33,774 nt of DNA, taken from IMG/VR virus record IMGVR_UViG_3300010148_000052, positions 1-33,774 of that record; one strand, written 5' to 3'. Below the pieces are notes generated by a model. It did not search any database and had not been told where the DNA came from. It saw nothing but the letters and a program-made list of their open reading frames with translations. This DNA comes from a virus. This document shows positions 1 through 18,810 of the stretch, piece by piece. Within the stretch, counting starts at the first letter, position 1. Every line of letters starts with the position of its first letter. The position numbers and the translations under genes were made by a program.

Positions 1-2
1 AT

Positions 3-1373: not shown

Positions 1374-1377
1374 AAAC

Positions 1378-1962
1378 ATGAGTAATATAGTAGTCTGTAA
1401 AACATGTGGTAAGAACTTTAGAAAGAGAAGTAATTTAGAAGTACGCAGTCATTGTGATGAGTGTAGTACAAACTTTACTAAAAAACTAAACAAAAGAAAC
1501 GTCTACAATAGAAGTAAATCTTCTATTGAAAAAGAGACTAAGGAAGAATACAGGATACGTTTACTAGAAGAGGAAGTAAAAGAATTAAAATCCATTTTTG
1601 AAACTATTAGTGATAGCACAAAAAGACAGATAGCGAGAGAAGTAGGGGTAGCCATCGAAGAGACTATGAAAATAGCCACAAAAAACCTAGAGGAAGATTT
1701 CAATGAACATAGACTTCTAGTCGAGAGTGTAGTAGCCGATGAGTTCAAAAAACAAAACACAAAGTTTCAGAATCAATTAGCCATATTGAACACTCGAATG
1801 AAAAAATTAGATGAAAGTTTTACAGTCTTAGATTCAAAAATGGCGGAACATTTACATTACTACACCACTAAACTAAGTTTACATAAAAACCGCAAGGGTG
1901 GTAGTATACAAAAGAATCGGACTATTACTGGTAAAAAGAGGGATGTAGTTGACAATACATGA
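1378..1962 (+). CDS. Zinc-finger plus coiled-coil protein
   Basis: A 194-aa protein. The N-terminus has C-K-T-C ... H-C-D-E-C (residues 7-29), a single zinc-ribbon-like module similar to those of the preceding protein. Residues about 48-155 are strongly charged with heptad-like spacing (EEEVKELKSIFETIS, then a long E/K/L-rich helix), predicting a coiled coil. The C-terminus is basic (KNRKGGS, TGKKR). The ribosome binding site GAAGTGA precedes ATG 1378. The architecture suggests a DNA- or RNA-binding oligomer, possibly a regulator or scaffold, but no family is recognised. It overlaps the next gene by 14 nt. Confidence 0.7.
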   Translation: MSNIVVCKTCGKNFRKRSNLEVRSHCDECSTNFTKKLNKRNVYNRSKSSIEKETKEEYRIRLLEEEVKELKSIFETISDSTKRQIAREVGVAIEETMKIATKNLEEDFNEHRLLVESVVADEFKKQNTKFQNQLAILNTRMKKLDESFTVLDSKMAEHLHYYTTKLSLHKNRKGGSIQKNRTITGKKRDVVDNT

Positions 1963-2608
1963 TGCGTGGAACTTCTTGAAAGAAGAAGTAAGGCTGAGAG
2001 GCTCTACTGGTGCTGCATTGCGCACTTTACCTAGTGGTAAAAGAGTGGTAGTGAAAAGAGGCGGTTTCGCTGGAGGTGACCCTCAGGCCCACATTAACAA
2101 CGAGTATGACATGAATCGTTATCTGAATGAACTAGGTGTCGGTGTTCCTAATGCTCAAATGGTAGAAGAAAGAGGTAGACCCACCATGCTTACTGATTAT
2201 GAAGAAGGTGCTAGACCTATCAGTATGAATGATAGAAAGCAATTACGAGAAGATGTAGTACCCCAAGCCTTGATAGGTAATTGGGATGTTCTAGGTATGG
2301 AAATGGATAACGTATTACGTAGACCCAATAACACTCTCAGTTACGTAGACGTAGGAGGGGCTGGACCGTATAGAGCACAAGGTGCACCTAAAGGAGATGC
2401 TTTTGGCTCAGAGGTAGGAGAAATAGAATCATTTCAACAACACATGCCTAGTATCTATGGTAACCTAACTCAACAAGAACTAGGACAGTCTTACGATAAA
2501 TACGGCGGTAGTGATGCGATGGAGGCTGCTCTATCGTCGCTTAGAAACAGTCAGACAAGAAACGTATTACAACAAAGAATAGGCGATATAGCAAGACGAG
2601 TTGCATAA
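1949..2608 (+). CDS. Small protein-kinase-fold (HipA/lipid-kinase-like) protein
   Basis: A 219-aa protein. The start is TTG 1949 with a GAGGGA ribosome binding site in the end of the upstream gene; an in-frame TAG lies just upstream and no ATG fits. Motifs resemble a minimal kinase fold: a beta strand with K36 (KRVVVKRGG), a mid-region 'LTDYEEG' that could be the hinge, then 'A-L-I-G-N-W-D-V-L-G' with D113, 'D-N' at 120-121, and 'Y-V-D-V-G-G' with D134 followed by 'YRAQGAPKG'. This N-W-D ... D-N ... D-x-G-G pattern is seen in HipA- and PI-kinase-like phage proteins. Target unknown. It is the last gene before the first 25-bp promoter element. Confidence 0.5.
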   Translation: MTIHDAWNFLKEEVRLRGSTGAALRTLPSGKRVVVKRGGFAGGDPQAHINNEYDMNRYLNELGVGVPNAQMVEERGRPTMLTDYEEGARPISMNDRKQLREDVVPQALIGNWDVLGMEMDNVLRRPNNTLSYVDVGGAGPYRAQGAPKGDAFGSEVGEIESFQQHMPSIYGNLTQQELGQSYDKYGGSDAMEAALSSLRNSQTRNVLQQRIGDIARRVA

Positions 2609-2615
2609 AGTAACT

Positions 2616-2640
2616 TTGACTATATAAACCGAGATTGAAT
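2616..2640 (+). promoter_or_regulatory. TATA-box promoter element, copy 1
   Basis: A 25-nt sequence beginning TTGACTATATAAACCGAG and ending GATTGAAT, identical at three places in the window. It contains a good archaeal TATA box (CTATATAAA, about 2620-2628). Initiation about 25 nt downstream would fall near 2650, just before the start of the unit at 2665. It lies in one of the few intergenic gaps, right after the stop of the kinase-like gene. Confidence 0.8.
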
Positions 2641-2664
2641 GAAGAGAATGGAAAGGGATTGAAG

Positions 2665-2979
2665 ATGTGGATAGCATTTAACGACGCATGGTTGAGCATA
2701 GTAGAGAATAGAAATGATGAGGAAACGCTGTTAGTGAGGGCTAGGTCAAAGCAGCACTTACTAAACGTATTTCCTAAGTGTGAACTGTTTAAGGATGAGA
2801 CAGCAGACTATCCTTATCGGGCTTACATAGAGAGAGAACACGTGGCTAACGTAGTATCTAATAGGTTGATGAAAATTAATTATCCTAATTTTAAGGCATC
2901 AGTAAAAGACGATAAACTAGGCACTGCTTACTCTAATATATGGAGCGAGATTTACTTCTTCTATCACGATGAGAGATAA
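2665..2979 (+). CDS. Conserved hypothetical protein (phage/bacterial family)
   Basis: A 104-aa protein starting MWIAFNDAWLSIV. The ATG at 2665 is preferred to an in-frame TTG at 2635, because the latter lies inside the promoter element, upstream of the expected transcription start. From memory, the segments 'N-x-A-W-L-S-I-V-E-N-R', 'L-L-V-R-A-R', 'D-Y-P-Y-R-A' and 'Y-P-N-F-K-A-S-V-K-D' match a widespread small family in phages and bacteria with no established function. It is the first gene of a four-gene unit driven by promoter copy 1. No membrane segment or cofactor motif is visible. Confidence 0.7.
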   Translation: MWIAFNDAWLSIVENRNDEETLLVRARSKQHLLNVFPKCELFKDETADYPYRAYIEREHVANVVSNRLMKINYPNFKASVKDDKLGTAYSNIWSEIYFFYHDER

Positions 2980-2981
2980 GC

Positions 2982-3266
2982 ATGAGAGAAAAAGACATCT
3001 ATGCTTTAGGTATAGCATTCGGTATGAAGCCGTTACAGATTAACAAAGCGATTCTATCGTATACGCAAATAAGATTAGATTCAAATTGGTCTAATCAAAG
3101 AAGTAATAAGAATCTAATAATCGACTGTCTTTACTTGTATGCTAAGGAATACAAAAGCGGTATCACTGTAAAGAAAGTGGAAAGTATAACATTGGATATG
3201 TTAGGAACGGGTACGAAACCAAAGCCAAATAAGTGGCTCGCTACTCACAAGCATCTACTGGTTTAA
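2982..3266 (+). CDS. Small helical hypothetical protein
   Basis: A 94-aa basic protein starting 2 nt after the upstream stop, with GAGAGAT as ribosome binding site. The sequence is mostly helical with conserved-looking aromatic residues (LGIAFGM, ILSYTQIR, CLYLYAKEYKSG). An N-terminal helix-turn-helix is possible but not demonstrable by eye. The stop TAA overlaps the next ATG as TAATG, indicating translational coupling. No family recognised. Confidence 0.55.
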   Translation: MREKDIYALGIAFGMKPLQINKAILSYTQIRLDSNWSNQRSNKNLIIDCLYLYAKEYKSGITVKKVESITLDMLGTGTKPKPNKWLATHKHLLV

Positions 3267-4534
3267 TGTTATTTACAGATTTGGCGAATGCTTGGGAAAG
3301 AAGTCGCTTAGGAGATAGGAGTCTATCTTCTTTAGACTTCAATGAAGAATCGACTGCGCTTTATGCATACGAGATTCTGTTTTCTAATGAAACCTTGACT
3401 GAAAGAAAAGTCCTTTCTAAAGTGGCTAACGAATTAGAAGTACCGTATGAAATTGTTTTAGAATTACTTGACAAAAGAGTATCGACCTTACTCGCATCAG
3501 AGAGCAGTGCATCGAATCCTTGTGATTGGAGCATAGAAGATATGTTGAAAATAAGAAATGCTGTTATTGAAGGCGAGTATTCGTTTTTAGATTTAAGTAA
3601 ACAGATGAATGAAATAGACGCTAGATTATTTTGGTCATCTGTAATAGGTGAGCAACAACCTATTTCCCCCCTCAGATTTTTAAGAAGATTGAACACTAGT
3701 ATATCTCCTGACATCATATCATCTAGTAGGGGTTTCCTTACCGATAAAGAAATAATTCATGCAGTGTACAATGATGTTAATTTATTATACGACCCTAAGT
3801 TATGGTATCAGAAACCCACTGCTGCATTAAGAAAGCGTAGATGGATTCCGTGGAGTAAATACAAATCTGTGGATATAGAGGTATACCAATCTATACCTAA
3901 TAACGGGGTAGTGAGCGTTGAATACAACGAGGAAGAAGATGTTATCATAGAGAAAGCAGGTGATGTAATCACCGATGTAGCATACCCTAAGCATCCTAAA
4001 TTATCATTAAAAGAAAGGTTGCTTAAATATTCTGAATCGCATGATGAGGAAATTGCTTGGCCTCTACCTACACCTTCTTGGGATTCAATAATTAAACATG
4101 AGAACACGGTACGATTTCCTAACACTGGGGGATTCTCTCCTACTGAATATGGGGGCTATGTCTTAGTGAAGCAATCTCACATTCATAATTTAAGATTAGC
4201 AGCATACAAACACGGTGATGTCATGGAAATAAAATTACAGGCAATCGATGGGGTAGACGAGTTTTTGGATGTAGGATTTTGCGCAGTTTATATAGAGTCG
4301 GAAAAAAGTTCTATCGCATTCGATATTGAAAGAATACTTGGTGCTAATACGGAAGAAGTAAACAGGTGGAAGGTAATACCCGATGATGTTTGTATAGTAA
4401 TACGTGTGTCATCGCCGTTTGTTGATAGAAGGTCGGGCACTTTGAGTAAACCTTCGTTTGTAGAAATAGATAATGAAATGGGCATATCTGATGTGGCTCA
4501 GTACGTCGATTTAGTAGGTGTGGAAAATGAATAG
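3266..4534 (+). CDS. Possible degenerate ATP-dependent DNA-ligase-like protein
   Basis: A 422-aa protein. The ATG at 3266 is chosen because it overlaps the upstream TAA as TAATG; an in-frame GTG at 3233 would overlap that gene by 34 nt. Layout by eye: an N-terminal helical region (FTDLANAWERS ... VANELEVPYEIV), a middle part ending in a beta-rich segment around 'EYGGYVLVKQSHIHNLRLAAYKHGD', and a C-terminal beta-rich region with 'VIRVSSPF' and 'SGTLSKPSFVEID'. The order and the last motif remind me of archaeal DNA ligases (helical DNA-binding domain, nucleotidyltransferase, OB domain). The catalytic KxDGxR motif is not present; the nearest match is K-Q-S-H-I-H. It may be an inactive ligase relative or something else; confidence in function is low, in the gene high. 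Confidence 0.5.
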   Translation: MLFTDLANAWERSRLGDRSLSSLDFNEESTALYAYEILFSNETLTERKVLSKVANELEVPYEIVLELLDKRVSTLLASESSASNPCDWSIEDMLKIRNAVIEGEYSFLDLSKQMNEIDARLFWSSVIGEQQPISPLRFLRRLNTSISPDIISSSRGFLTDKEIIHAVYNDVNLLYDPKLWYQKPTAALRKRRWIPWSKYKSVDIEVYQSIPNNGVVSVEYNEEEDVIIEKAGDVITDVAYPKHPKLSLKERLLKYSESHDEEIAWPLPTPSWDSIIKHENTVRFPNTGGFSPTEYGGYVLVKQSHIHNLRLAAYKHGDVMEIKLQAIDGVDEFLDVGFCAVYIESEKSSIAFDIERILGANTEEVNRWKVIPDDVCIVIRVSSPFVDRRSGTLSKPSFVEIDNEMGISDVAQYVDLVGVENE

Positions 4535-4964
4535 TGAAGTGGATAGAAGAGAAGAGTGGATGGGTTTAGGTATCATACTGACCGAACTACGGATGAAAAC
4601 TTGGGTAGAGAATAGAAGTGATTCCAAATTAGGTATGAGAGTAAAGAAACAAATAAGTTGGCGCTCTCTGTTTACTAGTGGTACTTACATCCAGCAGACT
4701 TGTGTGAGCAAGTTTCTGAGTCCCTTTGGTATGGAGTTAAAAGAAAAATACCATAGCAAGAGTGACATTTTCAAGTGGTTGGTCTTATTAGATAAGTTAG
4801 AGAACATGTATGGGATACGCTCTGCTTTATCCGATGGTGCTGGCTGGCACATGTTATCTTGGGTTGTTGACAATCCTGTTCCAAAGACATGGGATGATTT
4901 TCTTGTTTGGGTAGAAGCACACGATACAGAATTAGATATGCTCTCATACGATGAAATTGGTTGA
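4527..4964 (+). CDS. Hypothetical Trp-rich protein
   Basis: A 145-aa protein overlapping the previous gene by 8 nt (ATGAATAG), with GGTGTGG as ribosome binding site. It is helical and Trp-rich (EEWMGLG, KTWVEN, SWRSLF, FKWLVLLDKLENMYG, GWHMLSWVVDN, KTWDDFLVWVEAHD). No family was recognised. It is the last gene of the first promoter unit, and its TGA stop lies within the second promoter element, so the gene end and the next promoter are fused. Confidence 0.55.
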   Translation: MNSEVDRREEWMGLGIILTELRMKTWVENRSDSKLGMRVKKQISWRSLFTSGTYIQQTCVSKFLSPFGMELKEKYHSKSDIFKWLVLLDKLENMYGIRSALSDGAGWHMLSWVVDNPVPKTWDDFLVWVEAHDTELDMLSYDEIG

Positions 4965-4985
4965 CTATATAAACCGAGATTGAAT
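4961..4985 (+). promoter_or_regulatory. TATA-box promoter element, copy 2
   Basis: The second identical copy of the 25-nt element, with TATA box CTATATAAA at about 4965-4973. The TATA-to-ATG distance to the RFC gene at 4993 is about 25 nt. A start of transcription at the usual archaeal distance would therefore fall on or next to the ATG, predicting a leaderless mRNA. It overlaps the stop codon of the preceding gene. Confidence 0.85.
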
Positions 4986-4992
4986 AAACAGG

Positions 4993-6027
4993 ATGATGAA
5001 AACTCCAAGTATTTTCGATTACTCAGTAATCAGTGAAATGGCAGGTTTAGATGCTCTCAAGCAAGATGTTCAATCTTGGTACAGGCAAGAGTATGAAACT
5101 GGTCAATCAGCATTACCACAGGCATTATTGTTCTACGGTCCACCGGGCACAGGTAAGACTAGTGCTGCTCACTGTATAGCAAGACAGTTTCTAGGCGACA
5201 ACTTCAACAGCATGAACTTCATTGAATCCAATGCAAGTGATGATAGAGGTATTGATTTCATTAGAGGTTCATTCAAAACCGCTATGAGAACAAAAGGTAT
5301 AGGTGTAAAAAGAAAGATAATCCTACTAGATGAAGCAGACGGGCTTACCACAGCAGCACAAGATGCTATGCGCCAGTTGATAGAGAAGTATGCTCACAAT
5401 GCAATGGTTATACTCACGTGTAATGAGATTGAGAAGATACGACCTGCTATACGTTCAAGGTGTAATGCATACGCTTTCTCACCAGTAGATGAAACAGTAG
5501 GCGCGTCTTGGATTTATGATAGATGCGTCGCGCACCAATTGATAAATCCAACCGAAGTTTATACGGATATGATGGATGAGTTAAAAAGACTTGTAAAACA
5601 TATGAACGGAGATATGAGAGCGACTATCATGTTTATGAAATCCATGAACACACAAGGATATGATATGGGACATAATGATGATTTCAATTCTGTAAGAATC
5701 GGTATACGTATAGACCAACTTGTATCATCCGGCGCAGAAGATTCGGTAGCATACGCAATTAACAATGAATGGTATAACCTAAGGCGAAACCTTCATGCAC
5801 AAATCAAATCCGGCAGAACACTCCCAGCCGTACTCAATGGTTTCTACGGAGACATATATTCCCACTTTGAAGATGAGGATACATTGGATATGATATGGGA
5901 CATAATGGCGGTATATGGTGATACTATGACACATAGATACACATGGCCCGGCGACGACTATTCCTTCCTTGACTGGATGGTATCAAAAATGAGAAAACAA
6001 GTAAATAGAGGTAACAAAAATGAATAA
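4993..6027 (+). CDS. rfcS: Replication factor C small subunit (clamp loader ATPase)
   Basis: A 344-aa AAA+ ATPase that opens the sliding clamp and loads it on primed DNA. Clear motifs: 'GPPGTGKT' (Walker A, residues 49-56), 'NASDDRGI' (an RFC signature), 'LLDEAD' (Walker B, D113-E114), 'LTCN' (sensor 1) and 'S-R-C' near residue 156, carrying the arginine finger. The length matches archaeal RfcS (about 320-330 aa). No large subunit is visible in the window, so the viral protein may work as a homo-oligomer or with the host RfcL. It is the first gene after promoter copy 2 and probably leaderless. A 22-nt repeat occurs twice in its C-terminal coding part, in two reading frames. Confidence 0.95.
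   Translation: MMKTPSIFDYSVISEMAGLDALKQDVQSWYRQEYETGQSALPQALLFYGPPGTGKTSAAHCIARQFLGDNFNSMNFIESNASDDRGIDFIRGSFKTAMRTKGIGVKRKIILLDEADGLTTAAQDAMRQLIEKYAHNAMVILTCNEIEKIRPAIRSRCNAYAFSPVDETVGASWIYDRCVAHQLINPTEVYTDMMDELKRLVKHMNGDMRATIMFMKSMNTQGYDMGHNDDFNSVRIGIRIDQLVSSGAEDSVAYAINNEWYNLRRNLHAQIKSGRTLPAVLNGFYGDIYSHFEDEDTLDMIWDIMAVYGDTMTHRYTWPGDDYSFLDWMVSKMRKQVNRGNKNE
5656..5677 (+). repeat. 22-nt direct repeat, copy 1 (inside rfcS)
   Basis: The sequence begins ggatatgatatgggacataa and is identical to the copy at 5886. Here it is read as G-Y-D-M-G-H-N. Confidence 0.85.
5886..5907 (+). repeat. 22-nt direct repeat, copy 2 (inside rfcS)
   Basis: An exact copy of the 22 nt at 5656, 230 nt downstream. Because 230 is not a multiple of 3, it is read in another frame, as D-M-I-W-D-I-M. 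Protein-level repetition cannot explain it. Confidence 0.85.
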
Positions 6028-7351
6028 TGCAAATGAGAATAACCCGTTCAAACAACGGGAAGAAAAGAAAGACGAATGGCCTGAAGAGGTAATGCTGCGT
6101 TTCAAGATGCAAGCGGAAAGAACTGGTGAAAGTGTGGAGAAAGTTATCGAAGCATACATCAAACATATCGCTGACACATGGAACTGCACCGATTGGACTG
6201 CCGAAGATGCAGATTTATTGGTAGATTGGGCAGAAGGAATGTACATCGAAGATAGAAGTAGCAACATAAGCGGTGGCGGTGGAGACACAGTTACTTTCGT
6301 AGGACACTGGATGGGTGTAGAAGAGAAATCAGCAGATAGAAACGGTTGGTCTGTAAGAAATGCTAGACAGAAATGGCAAGAAGACCCTAATGCGGCTATG
6401 TCAGACGGTGTTGTAGGACACTACTATGAAGAAGATGGCGTGTGGGCTATTAACACCGCTAACGGCGCTCTAGTAACCACAGACCCAGCAAACGCAGACC
6501 CTACTATGGGATTCAAACAAGGTGACGATTGGATTTGCCTACTTAGCAAAGCAGGTAGACCATATCCATACGAAAGAATGGGTAGGTATTACAGATTCTT
6601 CGGTAATGAGCCAAAGAAGTTCTTAGATGGTGACTTACAATTTTGGAGAGTAGATTTGACTAACGAAAACAGAAACATGAAGATAGACGTAGGTTCTCCT
6701 GTATCTATCCAAGTTAGACTACCTAATACTAAAAGTGAAGCATTCCAAGACGTTCTAAGCACCAATTACAACTTTAGCGAAACTATGCAATACACCGATG
6801 AATGGTGTCCTGAGCACATCAGACATCATCTACAACCTTTCAAGATGTGGACTAACGATGACTACATGGGAGATGCATACGTAAACCTAACAGAACTAGA
6901 AGATGCATACAACGCTGGTAAAAGACACTTTACTGGTAGAGATGGTAACGATGGTACGGTTGGGCCTGATGTAATTGTAAGAGGTAGTGTAATGAGAATG
7001 TCTACCGAAGGTAAACCTAGCGATTGGGATGAGACAGGACGTAACTTTAGCCTATCTGTATCTTCCTTGAATCTACAAAATCAACACGGTAAAGGTAGAA
7101 TGAGTGAAATCCCTTGTTGGGTTAGTGGTTCATGCAACGATATTGCAAGCCCATTCCACTTTAGAGACATAGACGATGAACTATGGGGCTATGGAGAGAA
7201 GAGTTCTGTACTAGTCTATGGTAGACTAAAGATGAAAGTACAAGACGGACAGAGTATGCCACAACTAGCAGTGTTTGGTGTATATACGAATCCATCAAGA
7301 GCAATTAGAAGAGTCGGTGGTGGGGACACCGATTCTTCACAATTTGAGTGA
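6020..7351 (+). CDS. Putative single-stranded-DNA-binding (RPA-like) protein
   Basis: A 443-aa protein overlapping rfcS by 8 nt. The N-terminus (residues 18-80) is charged and helical; a Gly-rich linker (SGGGGD, about residue 85) leads to a long beta-rich, Trp/Tyr-rich region that plausibly holds several OB folds (e.g. 'GDTVTFVGHWMG', 'GSPVSIQVRLP', 'DVIVRGSVMRMS', 'SSVLVYGRLKMKVQDG'). The tail ends acidic and aromatic (DTDSSQFE), as is common in SSB proteins. Position between clamp loader and RadA/clamp/PolB genes fits an ssDNA-binding role. I did not identify a canonical RPA zinc finger, so the assignment rests on architecture and context. Confidence 0.5.
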   Translation: MNNANENNPFKQREEKKDEWPEEVMLRFKMQAERTGESVEKVIEAYIKHIADTWNCTDWTAEDADLLVDWAEGMYIEDRSSNISGGGGDTVTFVGHWMGVEEKSADRNGWSVRNARQKWQEDPNAAMSDGVVGHYYEEDGVWAINTANGALVTTDPANADPTMGFKQGDDWICLLSKAGRPYPYERMGRYYRFFGNEPKKFLDGDLQFWRVDLTNENRNMKIDVGSPVSIQVRLPNTKSEAFQDVLSTNYNFSETMQYTDEWCPEHIRHHLQPFKMWTNDDYMGDAYVNLTELEDAYNAGKRHFTGRDGNDGTVGPDVIVRGSVMRMSTEGKPSDWDETGRNFSLSVSSLNLQNQHGKGRMSEIPCWVSGSCNDIASPFHFRDIDDELWGYGEKSSVLVYGRLKMKVQDGQSMPQLAVFGVYTNPSRAIRRVGGGDTDSSQFE

Positions 7352-7360
7352 GGTGAGAAA

Positions 7361-7633
7361 GTGGCAGATAAGAAAAGAACGAAGAAAGAATTGGAAGAAG
7401 AATTGGAGACAGCCGTATCAAACAATGCGAGCCTAGTAGAGCAATACAACACGCTTTACACAGAGGCTATGCAGATACAGAAAGTTGCAGGTGACAGACT
7501 GGTTAGCATTAGATTGCTAGAAGCGTTTGCTAATGAAGTGAATGCATCGTTAAACAAACTACGTAGTGATGTAGCAGAAGTAAACAGAACTAACCAAGCA
7601 GAAACACAGGCAGCAGAAGAGGAGCAGAATTAA
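7361..7633 (+). CDS. Small coiled-coil protein
   Basis: A 90-aa, highly charged helical protein. The start is GTG 7361 with GAGGTGA 4 nt upstream. The N-terminus is Lys/Glu-rich (DKKRTKKELEEELE), the middle has hydrophobic heptads, and the C-terminus is acidic (AAEEEQN), which predicts a coiled-coil oligomer. It lies between the putative ssDNA-binding protein and the RadA-like ATPase, so a replication accessory or mediator role is possible but unproven. Confidence 0.65.
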   Translation: MADKKRTKKELEEELETAVSNNASLVEQYNTLYTEAMQIQKVAGDRLVSIRLLEAFANEVNASLNKLRSDVAEVNRTNQAETQAAEEEQN

Positions 7634-7634
7634 G

Positions 7635-7889
7635 ATGGCAGGTTTTGGAGAGAGTAAGAAAGTGCAACAAAAGGCAAGCGAAGAACCTGCTGACCCTTTT
7701 GCAGACTTGAGAACGGAATTAGCAGACGTAAATGCTAACAGACCTAAGACACATATTTTCATGGCTTTAGTCGGTCAAGAAAATACAGGTAAAAGTGCTA
7801 TAATATTTGACTTCTATCAGAGGTACTGCGATTCGTTTGACACAGGCAGACAGACTAACTTAGTAGAGTTTACAGAGGTGAATAAATGA
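7635..7889 (+). CDS. RadA/Sak4-like ATPase, N-terminal piece with Walker A
   Basis: An 84-aa frame with GAGGAG upstream. After a polar N-terminus it has 'THIFMALVGQENTGKSAIIFDFYQRY', i.e. beta strand 1, P-loop G47-x4-G52-K53-S54 and the following helix of a RecA-fold ATPase. It then stops at TGA 7887, before strand 2. The stop overlaps an ATG as ATGA, with GAGGTGA at 7875. The remainder of the ATPase fold is encoded downstream in another frame. Alone it cannot form a complete ATPase core. Confidence 0.75.
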   Translation: MAGFGESKKVQQKASEEPADPFADLRTELADVNANRPKTHIFMALVGQENTGKSAIIFDFYQRYCDSFDTGRQTNLVEFTEVNK

Positions 7890-7996
7890 GCGATAAACCT
7901 AAGTAATTTTGGGTAATTGACTTTGACAACGGTGGCTCTGCTACTAAGTCTGCGTTTTATGCCAACAATGACAACATCAAGTGCTGGGAGCCGTGG

Positions 7997-8611
7997 GTGA
8001 TGAACAAGAACGATAGGACAGCCTATGACTATCCAGCAACACATGATAGGACAGTTAAGATAATGCAGTTCGCATTAGATTCACATGAAGATTTGTGGGG
8101 TGTCTTAGTTACTGGTATAGATTTGTGGGATTCGGTAGCGACCAACTGTATGAGGATACAGGATTTGGGATTATCCAAAGACGGTATCGAAGCGGCTGAT
8201 AACAGAGGTCAAGGAGAGAACAAGAGAGTGCAGTCACAATGGGACTGGTCTATTCGTACTACAAGATTCCATCAACTTACTGCTTTATCACGTGCACTTG
8301 TAAAGAGAGGGGTGAATGTCTTTTGGGAAACACACTTGAAAGATGTCTACAACAAGCAAGGTGAGATTACTGCTAAAGAAGGACAACCTGCATGGGAGAA
8401 AACAACAGCAGGTTACATGTACCAAATTATACATTGCAGACGTAGAGATTCCTACGATGATGATGGTGAGGTTACACGTTCTGAGTTTACTGCTACCTTT
8501 GAGAAATCTAAGACTGATGCGACACTACAAGGACAGCGTAGCACTATACTGATAACTGAGCAGGGCAAACAACCTTCATGGTTAGGTTTACCTGAATTAC
8601 AAAGGCTGTGA
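7997..8611 (+). CDS. RadA/Sak4-like ATPase, C-terminal piece
   Basis: The readable part with a start codon is 204 aa from ATG 7997, but similarity to the fold begins earlier in the same frame: from 7907 it reads F-W-V-I-D-F-D-N-G-G (strand 2 of RecA-type ATPases) and from 7886 M-S-D-K-P-K followed by TAA. The piece contains 'LWGVLVTGIDLWDSV' (Walker B-like strand) and 'ALVKRGVNVFWETHLKDVY' (strand 4 region with sensor-like H). Its ordinary start would drop strand 2. It is probably a recombinase or recombination mediator paired with the upstream Walker A piece. It is followed by a zinc-ribbon gene and the clamp. Confidence 0.75.
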   Translation: MMNKNDRTAYDYPATHDRTVKIMQFALDSHEDLWGVLVTGIDLWDSVATNCMRIQDLGLSKDGIEAADNRGQGENKRVQSQWDWSIRTTRFHQLTALSRALVKRGVNVFWETHLKDVYNKQGEITAKEGQPAWEKTTAGYMYQIIHCRRRDSYDDDGEVTRSEFTATFEKSKTDATLQGQRSTILITEQGKQPSWLGLPELQRL

Positions 8612-8615
8612 ATCA

Positions 8616-8906
8616 ATGGAATATCTGTATGTTGAGAATAACATTGATGAGGGCATGGATAATTGTTTCAATTGTGCTTCGGAAATGGTTGAAGAACATC
8701 TTGTTGAAGATTCAGATATAGAAGAACACAAATCAACAGTTATTAGTTGTATTGAATGTGGTGCTTTGTGGAATAACATCACCCGCCGAGTCATAAACGA
8801 GAGACACCGAATAGACAAAAAACTCTACGCCGAAGTAGTAAAAATAGTAGGCGTGGAAACTGCCGTACAAATATACAGAAAACTGATTAGGGAAGGAAGT
8901 GAGTGA
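8616..8906 (+). CDS. Small zinc-ribbon protein with helical tail
   Basis: A 96-aa protein with C-F-N-C (residues 17-20) and C-I-E-C (about 46-49), an interval typical of a zinc ribbon, with an acidic loop between. The C-terminal half is basic and helical (RRVINERHRIDKKLYAEVVKIVG), possibly a DNA-binding helix. The stop TGA abuts the clamp ATG directly. Function unknown; one of about nine Cys-rich small proteins in the early region. Confidence 0.65.
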   Translation: MEYLYVENNIDEGMDNCFNCASEMVEEHLVEDSDIEEHKSTVISCIECGALWNNITRRVINERHRIDKKLYAEVVKIVGVETAVQIYRKLIREGSE

Positions 8907-9674
8907 ATGGCTCAGATGACACTTGACAAGAAAGAATGGTTAAGCCATTTAGGTCAATTTGATAGCAACATGAATGATTTGAATGTAAACATCATGGTCA
9001 ATCCTACTTGTTTAGGATATAGTGCTGCTTACCAAACACATTTCTTGAAAGTGTACTACCACTACCCCGATGCACCTGCTAAAGAAGGTACGCTGAATAT
9101 ATCAGACTTGGGTAAAACTTGTGCTTTTATTAGCAAGTGCGCTGGACCTGTTACGATTAAACAAATTAAAGGTGGTAAGACTCTCTACATTACAAGCGGT
9201 AAGATGAAAATGAATATACCTGTAACCGATATGAAGAGTAGTCAATTAGTACCCACGTTTGAGAAGTTAGTAGCGAAGGCGGAGAAGGCTGAATGGGCAT
9301 CCTTCGGACAAGACACTTACACATTAAAAGGTAAAACTCAGATGACAGACATACTCAAGTTAGCGACATTGAAATCGATAGTTAACAAGGATTCTGACTA
9401 CAAATTGACTGCTGATGCAGATTCGTCTGAACTTACAATATCTGTGGGTAAAGCCCACGATGTCAAATTATTTGCTACAAGTGAACTGAGAGAGGCAGAA
9501 GGGCCAAAGCATACGGTGGCTTCTAATTTCGGCCCTTGGCTTCTTCCATGTTTAGGTTTAGTTAATCCTAAGATGGTATCAAGGATACACTTTGGTGATT
9601 CTGTGGGTTTAGTGGTAAGACAATCTGATAATATGGTAAAGCGCTTATTGATAATTATAGACCAACAGGAATGA
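8907..9674 (+). CDS. pcn: PCNA-like sliding clamp
   Basis: A 255-aa protein, the usual length of archaeal PCNA. It is divergent, but the beta-strand-rich two-domain pattern fits: 'LDKKEWLSHLGQF' start helix, 'GTLNISDLGKTCAFISKC' (second helix of domain 1), a mid connector near residue 120, and a C-terminal half ending with 'FGPWLLPCLGLVNPKMVSRIHFGDSVGLVVRQ', resembling the last helix and strands of PCNA. Context is strong: rfcS upstream in the same operon and PolB 5 nt downstream. It would tether the viral polymerase and bind PIP-type peptides. A different beta-rich replication factor cannot be excluded by eye. Confidence 0.7.
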   Translation: MAQMTLDKKEWLSHLGQFDSNMNDLNVNIMVNPTCLGYSAAYQTHFLKVYYHYPDAPAKEGTLNISDLGKTCAFISKCAGPVTIKQIKGGKTLYITSGKMKMNIPVTDMKSSQLVPTFEKLVAKAEKAEWASFGQDTYTLKGKTQMTDILKLATLKSIVNKDSDYKLTADADSSELTISVGKAHDVKLFATSELREAEGPKHTVASNFGPWLLPCLGLVNPKMVSRIHFGDSVGLVVRQSDNMVKRLLIIIDQQE

Positions 9675-9679
9675 GATGA

Positions 9680-12115
9680 ATGATAATTGATTATTACTAT
9701 CCCGAAGATGAATGGGAGGGTGTAGGATACCCTCACGTTTACATGAGGCATAGAGGGGCTGACGGAGAGTTAGTCGAGTTAACCATAGACCCTAACGATG
9801 CAGATATTGATTTTAGCACATATGTGCCATGTCACTGTTGGATTGCTGCTAATACACATGCTAGGAGAATAAGTAGAGTAGTGGCTAGGTATCCGGGCAC
9901 TAGAGTTAGGTACGATATCACTGCTACTGGTTTAGACGGTGTTCCTCTAATGAGATTCGATGTTCCTAATCCAGCGCATCTATATGATATTAGGAATGAA
10001 ATACGAACTTATGAAGCCGATATCAATTACAATGATATGTTAATCAAACATATGTATCCTAAGGCAAAGGACATACCTGACTTTCAACCTAGAATATGGT
10101 ATTTCGATATGGAATGGCAACCGGAAGGATGCCCTAATGAGGGCGCTACTACAATGATTGCTATTGATGATACACACGCAGAATATCCGGTAGTATTTGC
10201 TTGGAAGAGTGATGGGTCTGCGTTAGTAGGAGATGCATATGTGAAGTATGTGAGAAACAATCCTAAGATTGAAACACCGACCATTGATTTTATCGATAGA
10301 GAAAGCGGTTATATGTTGTATATGTGTAAAGATGAAGGTGCTATGCATGAGGCTTTCTTAGAACATTTAGAAGAGTGTGACCCCGACATGCTTGTGGCTC
10401 ACTCGATACTATGGGCTGATTTACCTCAGTTGGTTAGAAGATTGGGTAATGAATCTGAGAGGCTTAGTCCTGTTAGACAAGTGATAAGACCCCATAAGAA
10501 AAATGGATACAGAGAGAACAGTCAACCTATACTCGGTAGACTATGTTACGATACTGCACTGTCTTGGGAGAAAGGTAGCGGTCTTGAGGCTATGTGGCAG
10601 AAAAGCGGCAACGGCCAATTTAGGAATAAGAAGTTGGCTACTATTGCAGAAGATTTAGAGTTAGACAAAGAGTTTGGTGAAGAGGGTGCTAAGATGGATG
10701 CGGATGTATTCACGTGGTGGATAGATAACTTTGATGAGTTTGTCGATTACTGTGTGCGTGACACTACACTTCTTAGGAAATGTACTGAGAAGGTGAAGGC
10801 TATACCCTATCATCTCGCTATGCAGAAACACTGTGGTGTATCTTTTAGAAGTACGTGTAATGTATCCAATTATATCAGAGGATTAATTTCACGTGAAACT
10901 GATTTGAAGGCTTTAACAACATACAACAGGCAAAGAGAAGAGTATGCTGCTGCTAACGTACCCGACACTGTTGGAGGTAGACATAGAGGTGTTGCTTGTA
11001 TTGATTTCAAGGCTATGTATCCTATACTGATAGTAGACGCAAATCTCTGCGTCACTACTAAAATGAGGCACGGTGGCGATGGTATACGTAGCGTTCCTAA
11101 TGGTACTTACTGGTCTAATGAGAAGGGTGTAATACCAACTATTATCTCTAGTATGTTAGAACTCCGTGCAGAATATAAGGCTCTGTTGAAAGCAGCAAAA
11201 ACTGACGAAGAGCGACTACAATACAACATGATGCAGACGGCTGTTAAAGTGGCTACAAATGCCGTGTATGGGTATGTATCTCAGAAGGCTGTCGGCGGTG
11301 GGTGGATAGACCCCGACATAGGTGCTACGATTACATATTACGGTAGACAATGTATCAATACTTTACTCTTAGAAAGCGAGAAAGCGGGATACAGAGCGCT
11401 TGCTGGACACACAGATTCAGGCTACATACAGATACCATTCGATGAAATAGAGAACCATGTAAATGATTTGAATAAGATAATACGAGAAAGATTTGATTTA
11501 CCTTCTATGGAAATTGAACTAGAGGCGTATTTTGATTACTGGTTGACTGCCGATGTGAAGAATCAAAACTTCGGTATCTTTGTGTGGCCTCCTGAGAAGA
11601 AGGGGCAACTGAAAGTTACTGGCTTCTCATACAAGGCATCTAGCGTATCTCCTATCACCAAACAGATACAAGGACGAATCTTCAATATGATAGGCACTGG
11701 GGCTGAGGAAGATGAGGTTACAAGTTTCATCAGACCAATTGCTCTGTCTGTGATTAAGGGCGAGAAAGGCGCGGAAGAACTTGCACCATATGGTCGTATA
11801 GGTAAAGAAAAGTATGCGCGCGTGCCTCCTATGCCAGTAAGAGGTGCTTACTACTATAATGAACATATCAACCCTAGAGAGCCTTTTAAGGTAGGAGATA
11901 GCCTACAATGGGTCTACACGAAAGCATCCCCTGATGGTATGGTACATACTAACGTAGTAGGCTTTAGGTCAGTAGATGAGATTGATGATTTCGTTATCGA
12001 CTACAATACGTGTGTCGATAAGTTCATTACAAGGAAAATTAAGAATATTTACAGCGTACTAGATTGGGATTTAGATGCGGCTGTCGGGGCTAAAAGGCCG
12101 AAGAAACATTGGTGA
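9680..12115 (+). CDS. polB: Family B DNA polymerase with 3'-5' proofreading domain
   Basis: An 811-aa replicative polymerase. Exonuclease motifs: D143-x-E145 (WYFDMEWQ), Exo II 'HSILWAD' (D247) and Exo III Y357-x3-D361. Polymerase motif A is 'DFKAMYP' (D442), motif B 'KVATNAVYG' (K523-N527-Y530-G531), and motif C 'GHTDSGY' (D579). Motif C differs from the canonical YxDTDS: the first Asp is His577. Motif A has M-Y-P where S-L-Y-P is usual. The length agrees with archaeal and viral PolB. The start is ATG 9680, as an upstream ATG runs into a stop. It lies between clamp and MazG-like genes in the replication operon. Confidence 0.95.
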   Translation: MIIDYYYPEDEWEGVGYPHVYMRHRGADGELVELTIDPNDADIDFSTYVPCHCWIAANTHARRISRVVARYPGTRVRYDITATGLDGVPLMRFDVPNPAHLYDIRNEIRTYEADINYNDMLIKHMYPKAKDIPDFQPRIWYFDMEWQPEGCPNEGATTMIAIDDTHAEYPVVFAWKSDGSALVGDAYVKYVRNNPKIETPTIDFIDRESGYMLYMCKDEGAMHEAFLEHLEECDPDMLVAHSILWADLPQLVRRLGNESERLSPVRQVIRPHKKNGYRENSQPILGRLCYDTALSWEKGSGLEAMWQKSGNGQFRNKKLATIAEDLELDKEFGEEGAKMDADVFTWWIDNFDEFVDYCVRDTTLLRKCTEKVKAIPYHLAMQKHCGVSFRSTCNVSNYIRGLISRETDLKALTTYNRQREEYAAANVPDTVGGRHRGVACIDFKAMYPILIVDANLCVTTKMRHGGDGIRSVPNGTYWSNEKGVIPTIISSMLELRAEYKALLKAAKTDEERLQYNMMQTAVKVATNAVYGYVSQKAVGGGWIDPDIGATITYYGRQCINTLLLESEKAGYRALAGHTDSGYIQIPFDEIENHVNDLNKIIRERFDLPSMEIELEAYFDYWLTADVKNQNFGIFVWPPEKKGQLKVTGFSYKASSVSPITKQIQGRIFNMIGTGAEEDEVTSFIRPIALSVIKGEKGAEELAPYGRIGKEKYARVPPMPVRGAYYYNEHINPREPFKVGDSLQWVYTKASPDGMVHTNVVGFRSVDEIDDFVIDYNTCVDKFITRKIKNIYSVLDWDLDAAVGAKRPKKHW

Positions 12116-12119
12116 TTGT

Positions 12120-12305
12120 ATGAGTAAGATAGAAGATATAGTGATAGAAAAAATAACTGCAAGAGCAGAATTGGGTCACCGTAAATATAACACTACGATG
12201 GAAAGAAGCGATTTAACCCGTAAAGAATGGTTAATTCATGCTCAAGAAGAAGCGTTAGACCTAGCGGTTTATTTGCAGAAATTGATAATGCTGGAGGAAG
12301 AGTAG
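12120..12305 (+). CDS. Small MazG-like nucleotide pyrophosphohydrolase-type protein
   Basis: A 61-aa protein starting at ATG 12120, after GGTGATT that also contains the polB stop codon. The sequence 'A-E-L-G-H-R-K-Y-N-T-T-M-E-R-S-D-L' followed by 'E-W-L-I-H-A-Q-E-E-A-L-D-L-A-V-Y-L' matches, from memory, a small phage family related to MazG-type all-alpha NTP pyrophosphatases; the E-E-x-x-D metal-binding motif is present. It may cleave non-canonical or excess dNTPs during genome replication. The short length (a full MazG domain is about 100 aa) suggests a minimal helix pair that must oligomerise. Confidence 0.65.
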   Translation: MSKIEDIVIEKITARAELGHRKYNTTMERSDLTRKEWLIHAQEEALDLAVYLQKLIMLEEE

Positions 12306-12443
12306 ATGACTAGGTTTCAGATAGTAAAATGCTTTTGTGGATGGCAAGGTGAGAAGGGTATCTACATGGTAAAAGGTGTACCTACTTGTCCTATCTGTCA
12401 AAGAGCACTTTCAGCGTTAAAATGCGAGGGGTGTTCTGAATGA
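12306..12443 (+). CDS. 45-aa zinc-ribbon peptide
   Basis: A short frame from ATG 12306, immediately after the upstream TAG, to TGA 12443, which overlaps the next ATG as ATGA. It encodes C-F-C-G-W near residue 9, C-P-I-C (28-31) and C-E-G-C (40-43), three Cys pairs in 45 residues, like a rubredoxin-type or zinc-ribbon fold. Tight spacing on both sides and the motif support a real gene. Role unknown. Confidence 0.6.
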   Translation: MTRFQIVKCFCGWQGEKGIYMVKGVPTCPICQRALSALKCEGCSE

Positions 12444-13453
12444 GTGAGTTTATGAAGTTCAATCCTAACAAGGAGAGTCTAGGTGATAGAGGCGCTGAGG
12501 CTCATACTCCTGAGTTGTTAGAGTCTTACAACAATAGTCTGTATGCGTGGCAACCGGACATGGATAAACATTTGAGAGTTAGTAAATCATCTCTTAATGC
12601 ACACGGTTGGTGTGGCTATTCTTACAAAATGAAATACATCTATCGTTTGTCTGAGGCAGAAACAGAAGACATGGTAAGGGGTACTAACGTACACAATATT
12701 GTAGAATACTTTTGGGACTATGCGCCTGACAAGATAGATGAAACCTTGAGTCTTATCGACGACGGTAAAGAATTGTTAGCCAAAGACTTGATGTACAGTG
12801 TAATTCCTAAACCCCCTAAACCGTATTTGTTAGGAGAAGAAGAAATTATACAGCAATGGTTCGATTGGCAATGGGATAGGTTTCTTGTAACTAGAGGTGT
12901 TAACTGGGCAGCCAAAGGTAACGAGGTATCTGCACATGCTCTAATTCATGTAGAAGTAGACGGTGAAGAATACCCAGTACATCTACGTGGATTCATTGAT
13001 ACTATCTTCTCTGATGGTGAAGGAGGCTTTGTATTGATGGAATTAAAAACTGGTAAATGGAAGCAGAAAAAGACCGCAAAGAAGATGCGAGAAGAAATGC
13101 AATTTTACAGGCTGATGCTAGATGAAGGAGAGTTCTCAGATTGGTTGCCAGTAACGCATTGGGCTTGGGAGTTCCCTAGAGGATGGGCTAACGGTGGAGA
13201 TAAAGCCAACTGGGAAATAGAAGAGGTTGGCTCAAAAATAACTAGGTATGCACCTAGAACAGTACAAAACAAACTAAAGAAATTAGTAAAAGCGCACATA
13301 ACAGACTCATTTGAGCCTGAACCATTTAACTATACAGATTGGAAAGGAGATGTAGTTTCTAGTTGCCAATTTTGTAGTTTCATGGAATTATGCCCTGCGT
13401 GGGGCAACAACTTAGACAGTCAAACAGAAATAGACATGGAGGACATAGAATGA
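12440..13453 (+). CDS. Cas4/RecB-family nuclease with Fe-S cluster
   Basis: A 337-aa PD-(D/E)xK nuclease. Visible motifs are H85 (RGTNVHNIVEYF), D187 (RGFIDTIF), E201-x-K203 (LMELKTGK) and Q221-x-Y223 (EMQFYRL), the order expected for RecB/Cas4-type active sites. Four cysteines, C58 (HGWCGYS) and C309, C312, C318 (SSCQFCSFMELC), match the Cas4/AddB 4Fe-4S arrangement. It is likely a 5'-3' exonuclease for DNA end processing in recombination; no cas genes or CRISPR array are nearby, so a CRISPR role is not indicated. It overlaps both neighbours as ATGA. Confidence 0.88.
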   Translation: MSEFMKFNPNKESLGDRGAEAHTPELLESYNNSLYAWQPDMDKHLRVSKSSLNAHGWCGYSYKMKYIYRLSEAETEDMVRGTNVHNIVEYFWDYAPDKIDETLSLIDDGKELLAKDLMYSVIPKPPKPYLLGEEEIIQQWFDWQWDRFLVTRGVNWAAKGNEVSAHALIHVEVDGEEYPVHLRGFIDTIFSDGEGGFVLMELKTGKWKQKKTAKKMREEMQFYRLMLDEGEFSDWLPVTHWAWEFPRGWANGGDKANWEIEEVGSKITRYAPRTVQNKLKKLVKAHITDSFEPEPFNYTDWKGDVVSSCQFCSFMELCPAWGNNLDSQTEIDMEDIE

Positions 13454-13791
13454 AAGTATACAGAGAGAGTGATGAAATAACAGCAATAAGAAGAGCAATC
13501 AAAACGGAATTAACCAAATTGATTGATAGACCTGAAACTGAACTAACCGTAGTAGACGGTATGATAAAAGATAATTTATACAGAGTTGATATAGGTGAAC
13601 AGATGACGTTACGAGCATTTACAGAAGAAGATGGGGTAACCTCTTTTCCCGTAATAATAGTGACGTTAGATAAGCAAATATACAGGACTTTACTATATGA
13701 TAACCATACGGATATCGAAATAGTTGCTAATATGATATATGCTACGATACGCAATAAAATTGAGAGTCAAGGTCTAGATAAATACTGGTGA
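13450..13791 (+). CDS. Hypothetical alpha/beta protein
   Basis: A 113-aa protein from ATG 13450, chosen because it overlaps the nuclease stop as ATGA; the open frame extends further upstream but only inside the previous gene. Strand-like segments (YRVDIGEQMTLRAF, FPVIIVTLDKQIYRTLLYD) follow an N-terminal helix. No family is recognised. It ends W-TGA with GGTGATT serving as ribosome binding site for the primase. Confidence 0.6.
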   Translation: MKVYRESDEITAIRRAIKTELTKLIDRPETELTVVDGMIKDNLYRVDIGEQMTLRAFTEEDGVTSFPVIIVTLDKQIYRTLLYDNHTDIEIVANMIYATIRNKIESQGLDKYW

Positions 13792-13795
13792 TTGT

Positions 13796-14893
13796 GTGCC
13801 ATTCATACCACTCGACTTTCCAAGGGAAGTCTTGGAATTAAGCGCTCATGGGGGTCATGGCGGGCGTTACCTCGTAAGGAACTGGGAAGAATTAGAAAGA
13901 TACTGGAAAGGTAAAAATGGAAGCGGAAACGCTTACTTTACCGCTTACGGGTACAGACGAACTCAAGCACCTAGACACCATAGAGCGGAATACAACACGG
14001 CCATAGTTAGACACTTTGTCATGGACTTCGACTGTAAAGACTTCAAACAGAAAGGTAAGAGCGTAGAGTTTTCTTTCATGCATGAGCAGGTAAAGAGACT
14101 ACATCAGCATTTATTAGATAACGACTATCATCATTTTATTTATTTCTCAGGCGGAGGATTCCATATTTGGATTCCTTTTGAAGAGGCATTCCTCCCTACT
14201 GATGGATTAGAAGTTACTAGATTGAAAAGTGCAGGTAAGATGCTTATGATGAATTGGCACGATGCGTTAGACCTCTCTTGTAACGACCCGACAGTGGCGT
14301 TTGATTTAGCGGGTATGATAAGGATACCCAACTCATACAATATGAAACGTGGATGTTGGTCTACACCTCTTACCTCAGAAGAAGTATTGACTCTTGAACA
14401 TGAAGATTTATTAGATTTAGCACAAGAGCCTAGAGGTGGGTATATAATTCTAGGAGAAAAACCGATTAAACTTACACTACCTGAGAAAAAGACGGGCGTA
14501 TTCGCTGTAAATAAAAAGAAAGTGGGTGATTTACCCACTATCTCATTAGGTAAGATACAGGTACTACCTTGTCTAGCACAAGCGGCTTTAGGCGAAGGTA
14601 ACCCTATCCACAGGGCTAGGTATCATCTAGCCTCGTATCTAGCCCATAGACTAAGGTGGTTCTTTCCAATCGATAGAGTGGAGGAAAAAGAACTAGATAG
14701 CCATGTTGAACAGATAATTGAGATTTGTTCTGAGCAAGGCTGGGCTGATTATAATGAAGATACTACGAGAATGCAAACGGAGAGTATAGTTTACAAAGGA
14801 TACCCCCACGCCAAATGTAGCACTTTGATGGAAGAGGGCTTCTGCACAGGTAAGTGTAGATTCTACGATGGAACAGGAGAAGGATTAACGTGA
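13796..14893 (+). CDS. Archaeo-eukaryotic primase fused to a PriL-like Fe-S domain
   Basis: A 365-aa protein started by GTG 13796 with GGTGATT just upstream. Catalytic-core motifs of the AEP superfamily are D77-F-D79 (HFVMDFDCKD, metal-binding), S118-G-G-G-F-H123 (nucleotide binding) and R176-I-P178 (AGMIRIPNSYN). The C-terminal quarter has C311, C341, C350 and C354 within helical sequence ('AKCSTLMEEGFCTGKC'), the layout of the 4Fe-4S domain of the archaeal primase large subunit. One polypeptide thus seems to combine PriS-type catalysis and a PriL-type initiation domain. It makes primers for PolB. It overlaps the following gene by 4 nt (GTGA). Confidence 0.88.
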   Translation: MPFIPLDFPREVLELSAHGGHGGRYLVRNWEELERYWKGKNGSGNAYFTAYGYRRTQAPRHHRAEYNTAIVRHFVMDFDCKDFKQKGKSVEFSFMHEQVKRLHQHLLDNDYHHFIYFSGGGFHIWIPFEEAFLPTDGLEVTRLKSAGKMLMMNWHDALDLSCNDPTVAFDLAGMIRIPNSYNMKRGCWSTPLTSEEVLTLEHEDLLDLAQEPRGGYIILGEKPIKLTLPEKKTGVFAVNKKKVGDLPTISLGKIQVLPCLAQAALGEGNPIHRARYHLASYLAHRLRWFFPIDRVEEKELDSHVEQIIEICSEQGWADYNEDTTRMQTESIVYKGYPHAKCSTLMEEGFCTGKCRFYDGTGEGLT

Positions 14894-15111
14894 AACATAT
14901 ATTCAATTGCTTGCAATGTGGCGCTAAGTTAGGTACTAGAAATTACACTTCAAGAGGAAAAAGCATAACGCATTTTTGTCAACGTTGTTTTAGTAAACCT
15001 AGTGATGAACATAGATGTCATGGTACAACGGTAAAGAAAGAAAGGTGTAGGGCTAGAAAATTGAATGGTAGTGATTATTGTAGAGTTCATAAAAAAGGAG
15101 GATATAATTGA
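14890..15111 (+). CDS. Small protein with zinc-ribbon and DUF5763-like Cys/His motif
   Basis: A 73-aa basic protein from GTG 14890, overlapping the primase end. The N-terminus has C-L-Q-C (residues 7-10) and C-Q-R-C (30-33), a zinc ribbon. The C-terminus reads C-H-G-T-T-V-K-K-E-R-C-R-A-R ... Y-C-R-V-H, the pattern 'C-x-G-T-T-x-K-x-x-x-C ... Y-C-x-x-H' seen in small phage domains such as DUF5763. Two metal sites are likely. Function unknown; nucleic-acid binding is plausible from charge. Confidence 0.65.
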   Translation: MKHIFNCLQCGAKLGTRNYTSRGKSITHFCQRCFSKPSDEHRCHGTTVKKERCRARKLNGSDYCRVHKKGGYN

Positions 15112-15788
15112 TGGTTGATTTAATTATAGATAGTAATGAAAGAGGAAAACTCTGCGAATCTATTATTCGTAAGGCTGAAAAAGTAGGCTTGAGAATTGAA
15201 AGAAAGCCGCTAATAGTAGGCGATTATTTGTTAGGTGCTGCGTGTGTCGAAGCCAAGTCTGTCAGCGATTTCTTACAATCGTGCGATAGCGGCCATCTAT
15301 GGAAACAATTAGACAATATGGATGCGAACTATGAGCGTTTCTTTTTGCTTGTACATGGTAGTATATCACAATACGTGAAAATGGCAAAGACATCATACAG
15401 CAAAACGCAGAATAAGTTCTTAGGTTTATTAGCCCGTATAATGGCTGATTTCGACTGTCAGGTGATATTCACCCCTAACGTAAGCGAAGCGGCTCTATTT
15501 GTCGTTAAACTACACAATAAACTACACAAACCAGCGTCAGCACATGGCGCTCAAGCAATTCGTAGAGTAAGCACTAATGATGTGCGTAAAGATGTGCTAC
15601 TCACAATACCCGGTGTGGGTAGTATAATGGCAGACAGGTTATTGAAAACTTGCGGCTGTATAGAAGAGATGATGTATGAAGATTCCCTAAAGAAAGTGAA
15701 AGGTTTGGGTACGAAAACTGCGAGGAAGATTGCAGAAGTACTCACTAGCGAACAACCCGTTCATGTGGAAAGGACGGTGTTTCGCTGA
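15111..15788 (+). CDS. XPF/ERCC4-type structure-specific nuclease
   Basis: A 225-aa protein. ATG 15111 is preferred (TGATG overlap); GGAGG at 15097 also fits a TTG at 15108. The ERCC4 nuclease core is 'IIDSNERGK' (D7, E10, R11), 'GDYLLG' (G37-D38) and 'V-E-A-K-S-V-S-D' (E47, K49, D53), equivalent to the canonical ERKxxxD with Arg replaced by Ala48. Two helix-hairpin-helix elements follow (LLTIPGVGSIMADRLL and VKGLGTKTARKIAEVL, about residues 165-213). No helicase domain, unlike Hef. It likely cleaves forks, flaps or branched recombination DNA. It is the last gene of unit 2; promoter copy 3 begins 1 nt after its stop. Confidence 0.9.
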   Translation: MVDLIIDSNERGKLCESIIRKAEKVGLRIERKPLIVGDYLLGAACVEAKSVSDFLQSCDSGHLWKQLDNMDANYERFFLLVHGSISQYVKMAKTSYSKTQNKFLGLLARIMADFDCQVIFTPNVSEAALFVVKLHNKLHKPASAHGAQAIRRVSTNDVRKDVLLTIPGVGSIMADRLLKTCGCIEEMMYEDSLKKVKGLGTKTARKIAEVLTSEQPVHVERTVFR

Positions 15789-15813
15789 TTGACTATATAA
15801 ACCGAGATTGAAT
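15789..15813 (+). promoter_or_regulatory. TATA-box promoter element, copy 3
   Basis: The third identical copy of the 25-nt element, with TATA box at about 15793-15801. Predicted transcription start is near 15820, giving an untranslated leader of about 100 nt before the helicase ATG at 15920. This is the longest leader of the three units. Confidence 0.8.
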
Positions 15814-15919
15814 AGTCAGATATTCCGATGTATTATCTATACATAGTTACAATTATGTACTCTAGTATAGACGGACAATAGGAATATTCGGAAGGGTATG
15901 GAAAGGAGAGAAGGAGAAC
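15814..15919 (+). promoter_or_regulatory. Leader with dyad, upstream of the helicase gene
   Basis: A 106-nt AT-rich non-coding stretch. It contains a nested dyad at 15837-15870 (CTATAC ... GTATAG outside, TACATA ... TATGTA inside) and two related motifs, gatattccga (about 15817) and ggaatattcgg (about 15882). A purine-rich run with GGAGAGAAGGAG precedes ATG 15920 as ribosome binding site. It is the longest non-coding stretch in the + strand arm. It could hold an operator, a 5'-leader structure or a replication start; none is proven. Confidence 0.4.
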
Positions 15920-18718: not shown

Positions 18719-18810
18719 GAGATGAATTACAAGAGTTTGAAAGAGGTATGGCTAGATACAATGAAATGCTATTACATGAACATCTTAGAGAGAAGGAGGG
18801 AGAAGAATGA
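18715..18810 (+). CDS. 31-aa helical peptide
   Basis: From ATG 18715 (ATGA overlap, ACGGAGG upstream) to TGA 18810 (ATGA overlap with the chaperonin gene). It encodes MRDELQEFERGMARYNEML and a basic/acidic tail. The coding strand of its last codons also contains GAAGGAGGGAG, the ribosome binding site of the chaperonin. It may be a real peptide or mainly a translational coupler. Confidence 0.4.
   Translation: MRDELQEFERGMARYNEMLLHEHLREKEGEE

Follow-up and report, generated by a model that had tools for sequence, protein, structure and literature searches.

A 25-base TATA-bearing element, TTGACTATATAAACCGAGATTGAAT, occurs in three exact plus-strand copies in the window (the whole 33,774-nucleotide stretch of DNA analyzed here, IMG/VR record IMGVR_UViG_3300010148_000052), and related viruses carry their own versions of it at homologous places, with up to 11 or 12 copies in the longer relatives, on the strand of the replication genes and ahead of gene clusters. 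We consider it probable that this element is a replication-side core promoter with a virus-specific tag that is read by a sequence-specific factor, the copies of one genome changing together. The window itself is a fragment of a magrovirus. It encodes an RFC-like ATPase, a family B DNA polymerase (PolB), a PD-(D/E)XK nuclease, an ERCC4 nuclease and a thermosome, with a primase-like match below the cut-off, and this gene content and the two oppositely transcribed parts fit the magroviruses, for which such a replication gene set and such a bipartite organization have been described (PMC12999244). The features to which we refer are the following:

2616-2640, plus strand: element copy 1, exact 25-mer (TATA box 2621-2628, five-base tag 2629-2633)
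4961-4985, plus strand: element copy 2, exact 25-mer (TATA box 4966-4973, tag 4974-4978)
15789-15813, plus strand: element copy 3, exact 25-mer (TATA box 15794-15801, tag 15802-15806)
2665-4964, plus strand: gene cluster behind copy 1, with the first ATG 24 nt past the element
4993-15788, plus strand: gene cluster behind copy 2, with the RFC-like ATPase first, and PolB, the nuclease, the primase-like gene and the ERCC4 nuclease
15814-15919, plus strand: 106 nt leader behind copy 3, with a possible hairpin
15920-20312, plus strand: gene cluster behind copy 3, with a 472 aa protein of no assigned function first and the thermosome last
669-1373, plus strand: four-module zinc-finger protein, a candidate reading factor that was not upheld as a universal one

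The original prediction had recognized the same 25 nucleotides at these three sites, each at the end of one gene cluster and ahead of another, and both observations are borne out. The repetition is far beyond chance: with up to 3 mismatches allowed, the first 18 bases of TTGACTATATAAACCGAGATTGAAT match the window 3 times, where 100 shuffles averaged 0.04, and a search of both strands of the window recovered no variants that differ from the 25-mer at 1 to 6 positions. Copy 1 begins 7 nt past the stop of ORF 1949-2608, copy 2 supplies through its own TGA the stop of ORF 4518-4964, copy 3 directly adjoins the stop of ORF 15108-15788, and the genes after all three copies are on the same strand as the element. 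Behind copy 2 the first ATG follows after 7 nt, which is in the leaderless range. The gene content of these clusters suggests that they belong to an early class. In five of the six relatives folded, the long leader ahead of the 472 aa gene gives a hairpin (z between -2.0 and -3.9; -0.04 in G008), with compensatory change in only 2 of the 18 consensus pairs and an unfavourable covariation term; a motif like that of the leader is also found on the minus strand near positions 48600 of G001, 26179 of G005 and 60420 of G007, where it sits upstream of a late-strand gene.

A scan of IMG/VR for exact matches to the 25-mer returned 15 stretches in six contigs. At up to 3 mismatches the whole records of these contigs hold 11 (G001), 10 (G003), 6 (G004), 5 (G005), 3 (G002) and 1 (G006) copies, confined to one strand in each record, with none for a reversed-pattern control. 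By its copy spacing G003 appears to be the same virus as G001. G002, by its coordinates, appears to be an extended record of the window's virus, and over the 75 overlapping bases that were compared the two are identical. Along the replication-gene strand of G001 the copies span 57.7 to 94.9 kb; they have 0-3 mismatches, and the next-best sequences have 7 and 8, so that there is no continuum. The 16-mer core TATATAAACCGAGATT gave 51 stretches, among them 30 single matches in other IMG/VR contigs, which by rough arithmetic could be due to chance. Elsewhere in G001, positions 1-15200 of the minus strand (L049) form one frame of 5066 codons without a stop, which belongs to a giant late-strand gene, and many proteins encoded in 60683-78010 end in three to five C-terminal glutamates, probably where the Shine-Dalgarno-like tract of the next gene overlaps the last codons.

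A set of 22 loci found via PolB revealed different element sequences at homologous places: TTGACTACTTAAACAAAGAATGAAA in 12 copies in G007, TTTGGTATTTAAACGAAGATAGTAT in 9 and 7 copies in G009 and G018 respectively, and further own-version families of 9 (G010), 6 (G008), 5 (G021), 4 (G017) and 3 copies (G012, G013 and G022 each), with no opposite-strand matches to these families at up to 6 mismatches. The automatic criterion, a family of three, recovered none in G006, G011, G014, G015, G016, G019 and G020. Four of these hold one or two copies: the window version is present once in G006, the G009 version twice and exactly in G019, yet another version twice in G015, and the G012 version once in G011. 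A thermosome query of the genome contigs found no relative. Identity among the elements of one virus is 0.94 (230 pairs; 62 elements from nine representatives), a value that none of 2000 label shuffles reached and that is helped by the site finding, in which each virus's own consensus was used; between viruses it is 0.69 for orthologous sites (117 pairs) and 0.67 for non-orthologous ones (1544 pairs). As a check on this bias, with no consensus of its own as the starting point, the first genes of the 11 clusters of G001 were sought in every contig. In six contigs (G007, G008, G009, G010, G018 and G021) the own element lies upstream of 38 of 38 evaluable orthologous cluster starts, two partial matches being excluded from the count, and the first gene behind copy 1 keeps it in all six; for two of the 38, both at genes that do not have the long leader, the element is more than 60 nt away. 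The remaining contigs gave 12 negative rows, 8 of which come from G011, G014, G015, G016, G019 and G020, for which the script held no reference element and some of which show a version otherwise; the four true misses comprise three at the 472 aa gene (G013, G017 and G022) and one, again in G013, at the first gene behind copy 1. Thus, with exceptions in G013, G017 and G022, the position and orientation of the element are kept in related viruses. The expectation that the element should recur upstream of homologous operons in relatives accordingly holds for its place, where another version is found, and fails for its exact sequence, which is absent in the more distant relatives.

Beyond this set, a PolB profile provided the best 80 of 153 relatives, of which 20 were already known, leaving 60 further loci. 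Here we used a motif-free test for 18-mers common to start-codon upstream regions, in which a TATA box was not required. Families of three or more were found on the PolB strand in 10 of the 60 loci and on the other strand in none, the latter being an imperfect control with probably fewer gene starts. All 10 families are TATA-bearing and all are new versions, several of the positive loci looking like the same or near-identical viruses; the other 50 loci have no family of three, and two-copy families occur on both strands. Whole records from other clades hold 12, 9, 7, 6, 4, 3, 2, 1 and 1 copies at up to 3 mismatches, on a single strand in 9 of 9, and a second pattern accounts for 9, 6, 5, 2 and 1 copies in five of ten records. 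In G323 and G325, whose PolB proteins are 43% and 40% identical to that of G001, elements are again placed ahead of the RFC-like and 472 aa genes, with one opposite-strand match in G323 when up to 4 mismatches are allowed. Within the G319/G323 clade the tag differs inside one genome (TCGG, TTGG, CTGG). In L298, L310, L313, L314 and their relatives, from other magrovirus clades, the element passes directly into purine-rich sequence, in which GGTGA- or GGAGATGA-like tracts keep a nearly fixed distance to the ATG.

The anatomy of the element would suit a promoter. Measured from the end of the 25-mer to the first ATG of an open frame, the spacing in 62 elements is 6-10 nt in 25 (exactly 8 in 16), 13-27 nt in 30, 45 nt in 1 and 100-106 nt in 6; the mode of 8 nt places the start of the TATA box 28 nt ahead of the ATG. 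Judged from sequence, this spacing fits what would be expected of an archaeal TATA promoter, often a leaderless one. Shine-Dalgarno-like tracts are present in 7 of the 25 short spacers, 26 of the 30 medium ones and all 6 long ones, and in many clusters with 13-27 nt spacers the tract would lie partly upstream of the predicted RNA start, which counts against the promoter reading. In a set of 19 hand-chosen representatives, with one site each, variability was compared across all positions between the fifth base ahead of the TATA box and the 21st base past it; entropy is highest at the second and fifth post-TATA bases (1.96 and 1.90 bits). The five-base blocks following the box number 18 distinct ones among these 19, counted by eye, and are constant or nearly so within several viruses (11/11 in G001, 9/9 in G009, 9/12 in G007).

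In the model that we propose, the element would serve as the core promoter for gene clusters on the replication side (early or middle). Its TATA box (bases 6-13) would be bound by the TBP and TFB of the host, with transcription beginning about 25-28 nt past the first base of the box and in many cases directly at the ATG. The bases that immediately follow the box, in particular the first five, would constitute a virus-specific tag common to the promoters of one genome and read by a sequence-specific factor, most likely virus-encoded, and the copies would have to change together whenever the specificity of this factor changes. The position of the tag, in the region of RNA polymerase recruitment, makes a repressor or modulator our first guess for how the reader acts. 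A more speculative extension, to which we give only limited credence, is that the tag is a barcode by which a virus-encoded regulator silences or times only promoters of its own type; competition between magroviruses in co-infection would then drive fast barcode turnover, and the versions would define transcriptional immunity groups among archaeal viruses. The co-regulated early class with a virus-specific factor that had originally been predicted is supported as regards the class, given the position, strand, ATG spacing and conservation in relatives, and the concerted virus-by-virus change makes the factor likely, while the candidate for it failed.

The uniformity of the copies within a genome might also result from recombination, or from promoter cassettes being copied, without any factor dedicated to reading the tag. 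Two elements of G007 (79996 and 86740 of the oriented contig) indeed have 8 nt upstream and 15 nt downstream in common, as if a promoter cassette had been copied. This account, which we deem improbable, has to contend with the sharp edges of the element at about 25 nt and with close strains that retain site-specific end letters (identical at 7/7 sites in G009/G018 and 6/6 in G001/G004). G001 and G005 are 0.99 identical over 4 sites. Across 11 sites of G001 and G007 the identity of the element is even, at 0.60-0.80 with a mean of 0.75, and that of the upstream and downstream flanks ranges from 0.40 to 0.90. Together these observations favor a shared reader over continuing homogenisation, the apparent cassette copy in G007 notwithstanding. 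The placement of elements at cluster borders might likewise suggest homology blocks that allow related viruses to exchange operon modules, as the original prediction had offered as its other explanation. We find hardly any room for it: the window, G007 and G009 versions occupy non-overlapping sets of IMG/VR contigs (exact matches), the block is not common to different viruses, 25 bp is short, and the borders lie at the same genes in relatives.

A different view of the tag is that a host factor reads the post-TATA bases, for instance one of two TFB paralogs through a downstream TFB element, and that the versions follow host lineage. The most variable positions do come directly after the TATA box, all eight Poseidoniales genomes G023-G030 encode two TFB-type proteins (about 308-327 aa and 337-363 aa; G027 has an additional 229 aa copy on another contig), and no virus TFB or TBP that could be the reader was recovered above the cut-off in 22 virus contigs, the one weak TFIIB-like match being in G013. 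Yet 20 or more fixed bases are more than a general factor would require, and genomes of Poseidoniales, the presumed hosts, to which the original prediction had looked for the motif, are without the element: the 25-mer at up to 3 mismatches is found in 0 of 292 (a further scan gave 0 of 5), and its 14-mer core at up to 1 mismatch is not enriched, with 9 matches in 115 genomes, none of them exact, against 57 for a reversed control in our tally. On balance we rate a host reader as unlikely. No usable signal for a host promoter consensus emerged when 160 upstream regions from one host, together with 10 regions upstream of tRNA genes, were analyzed in a naive way. Still further from our expectation, and in our estimate very improbable, is a non-promoter site ahead of the clusters, acting like a stoperator or in RNA-level control by processing or translation. 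The mycobacteriophage stoperators are genome-wide one-orientation sites with virus-specific versions in the portion of the report available to us (PMC6550527), and the tracts in 26 of 30 medium spacers might suit translational control, but the register of the TATA box is nearly fixed and 25 of 62 spacers are in the leaderless range.

For the promoter with a virus-encoded reader, the candidate considered was the zinc-finger protein (window 669-1370), whose 16 cysteines are invariant in all 10 window-type sequences aligned and which is also present in L291 and L292. Comparison of its structural model (pLDDT 82, pTM 0.37) with the PDB gave nothing significant by fold (best E 0.64), nor did comparison of its sequence (best E 0.27), and no PHROG or Pfam family was matched above the cut-off. 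It was rejected as a universal reader because it is missing in 10 of 10 records of other clades. No virus RNA polymerase was detected among 40 proteins, a genome subset, compared with Pfam. The replication strand of G001 also has genes for an ArdC-like antirestriction protein and a SNF2-family helicase (60683-61630 and 61974-64670), the latter present in G323 and G325 as well; one idea is that the helicase might be a further regulator, because eukaryotic SNF2 proteins can strip TBP from DNA.

In the literature searched we found no description of transcription control in viruses of Poseidoniales, which according to the magrovirus literature are among the most abundant archaea of the surface ocean. 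A search pairing magroviruses with promoters had no match, one for concerted evolution of archaeal virus promoters had a sole match, by its title on tRNA introns, and the word 'promoter' is absent from the available part of the text of PMC10160649. A promoter set that switches versions would allow the early regulon to be mapped from sequence data only and contigs to be sorted by virus type, and versions that switch together would be a natural experiment for finding the reading factor.

The phages T7, T3 and SP6 have many near-identical promoters per genome that differ between relatives and are read by a phage RNA polymerase. The magrovirus element is similar in forming a near-identical set; however, its TATA box points to the host enzyme. 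A nearer parallel is offered by the class I and II intergenic repeats of the archaeal tailed virus HF2, likewise repeated TATA-bearing elements ahead of gene clusters, for which promoter activity was measured by reporter assay in Haloferax volcanii with the TATA box beginning at -26 from the measured start, and whose authors propose virus-encoded factors, as we suggest here for the magrovirus element (PMC8707807, in the sections accessible to us). The two share the feature of several near-identical TATA-bearing repeats between gene clusters. The class I repeats differ in being 56-58 bp long, against 25 bp here, in having another sequence and in including the RNA start (same sections of PMC8707807), and our comparison with six of them showed the magrovirus element to be unlike them in sequence and length; moreover, HF2 promoter activity is measured and that of the magrovirus element predicted. 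As far as the accessible text goes, HF2 also has a late class, whereas the late-strand upstream gaps of G001, G007 and G009 have no common 11-mer, except for two overlapping ones common to one site pair in G007. In the parts of the reports at hand the position and sequence of the HF2 repeats are kept within the genus (PMC8707807, PMC7230728), in contrast to magrovirus versions, which switch between relatives (ortholog identity 0.69). HJTV-1, a member of that genus, carries the same class I core as HF2 and was hence rejected as a second halovirus version. The stoperators of cluster A mycobacteriophages are alike in being spread over the whole genome, for the most part in a single orientation, with versions that vary from phage to phage in correlation with the repressor; they differ in being 13 bp long, in a bacterial host and with a known repressor, compared with a TATA-bearing element at cluster starts of an archaeal virus (PMC6550527, in the portion available). 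Thus, the closest known systems are the HF2 intergenic-repeat promoters and the cluster A stoperators, and the switching of versions between relatives is what sets the magrovirus element apart from HF2.
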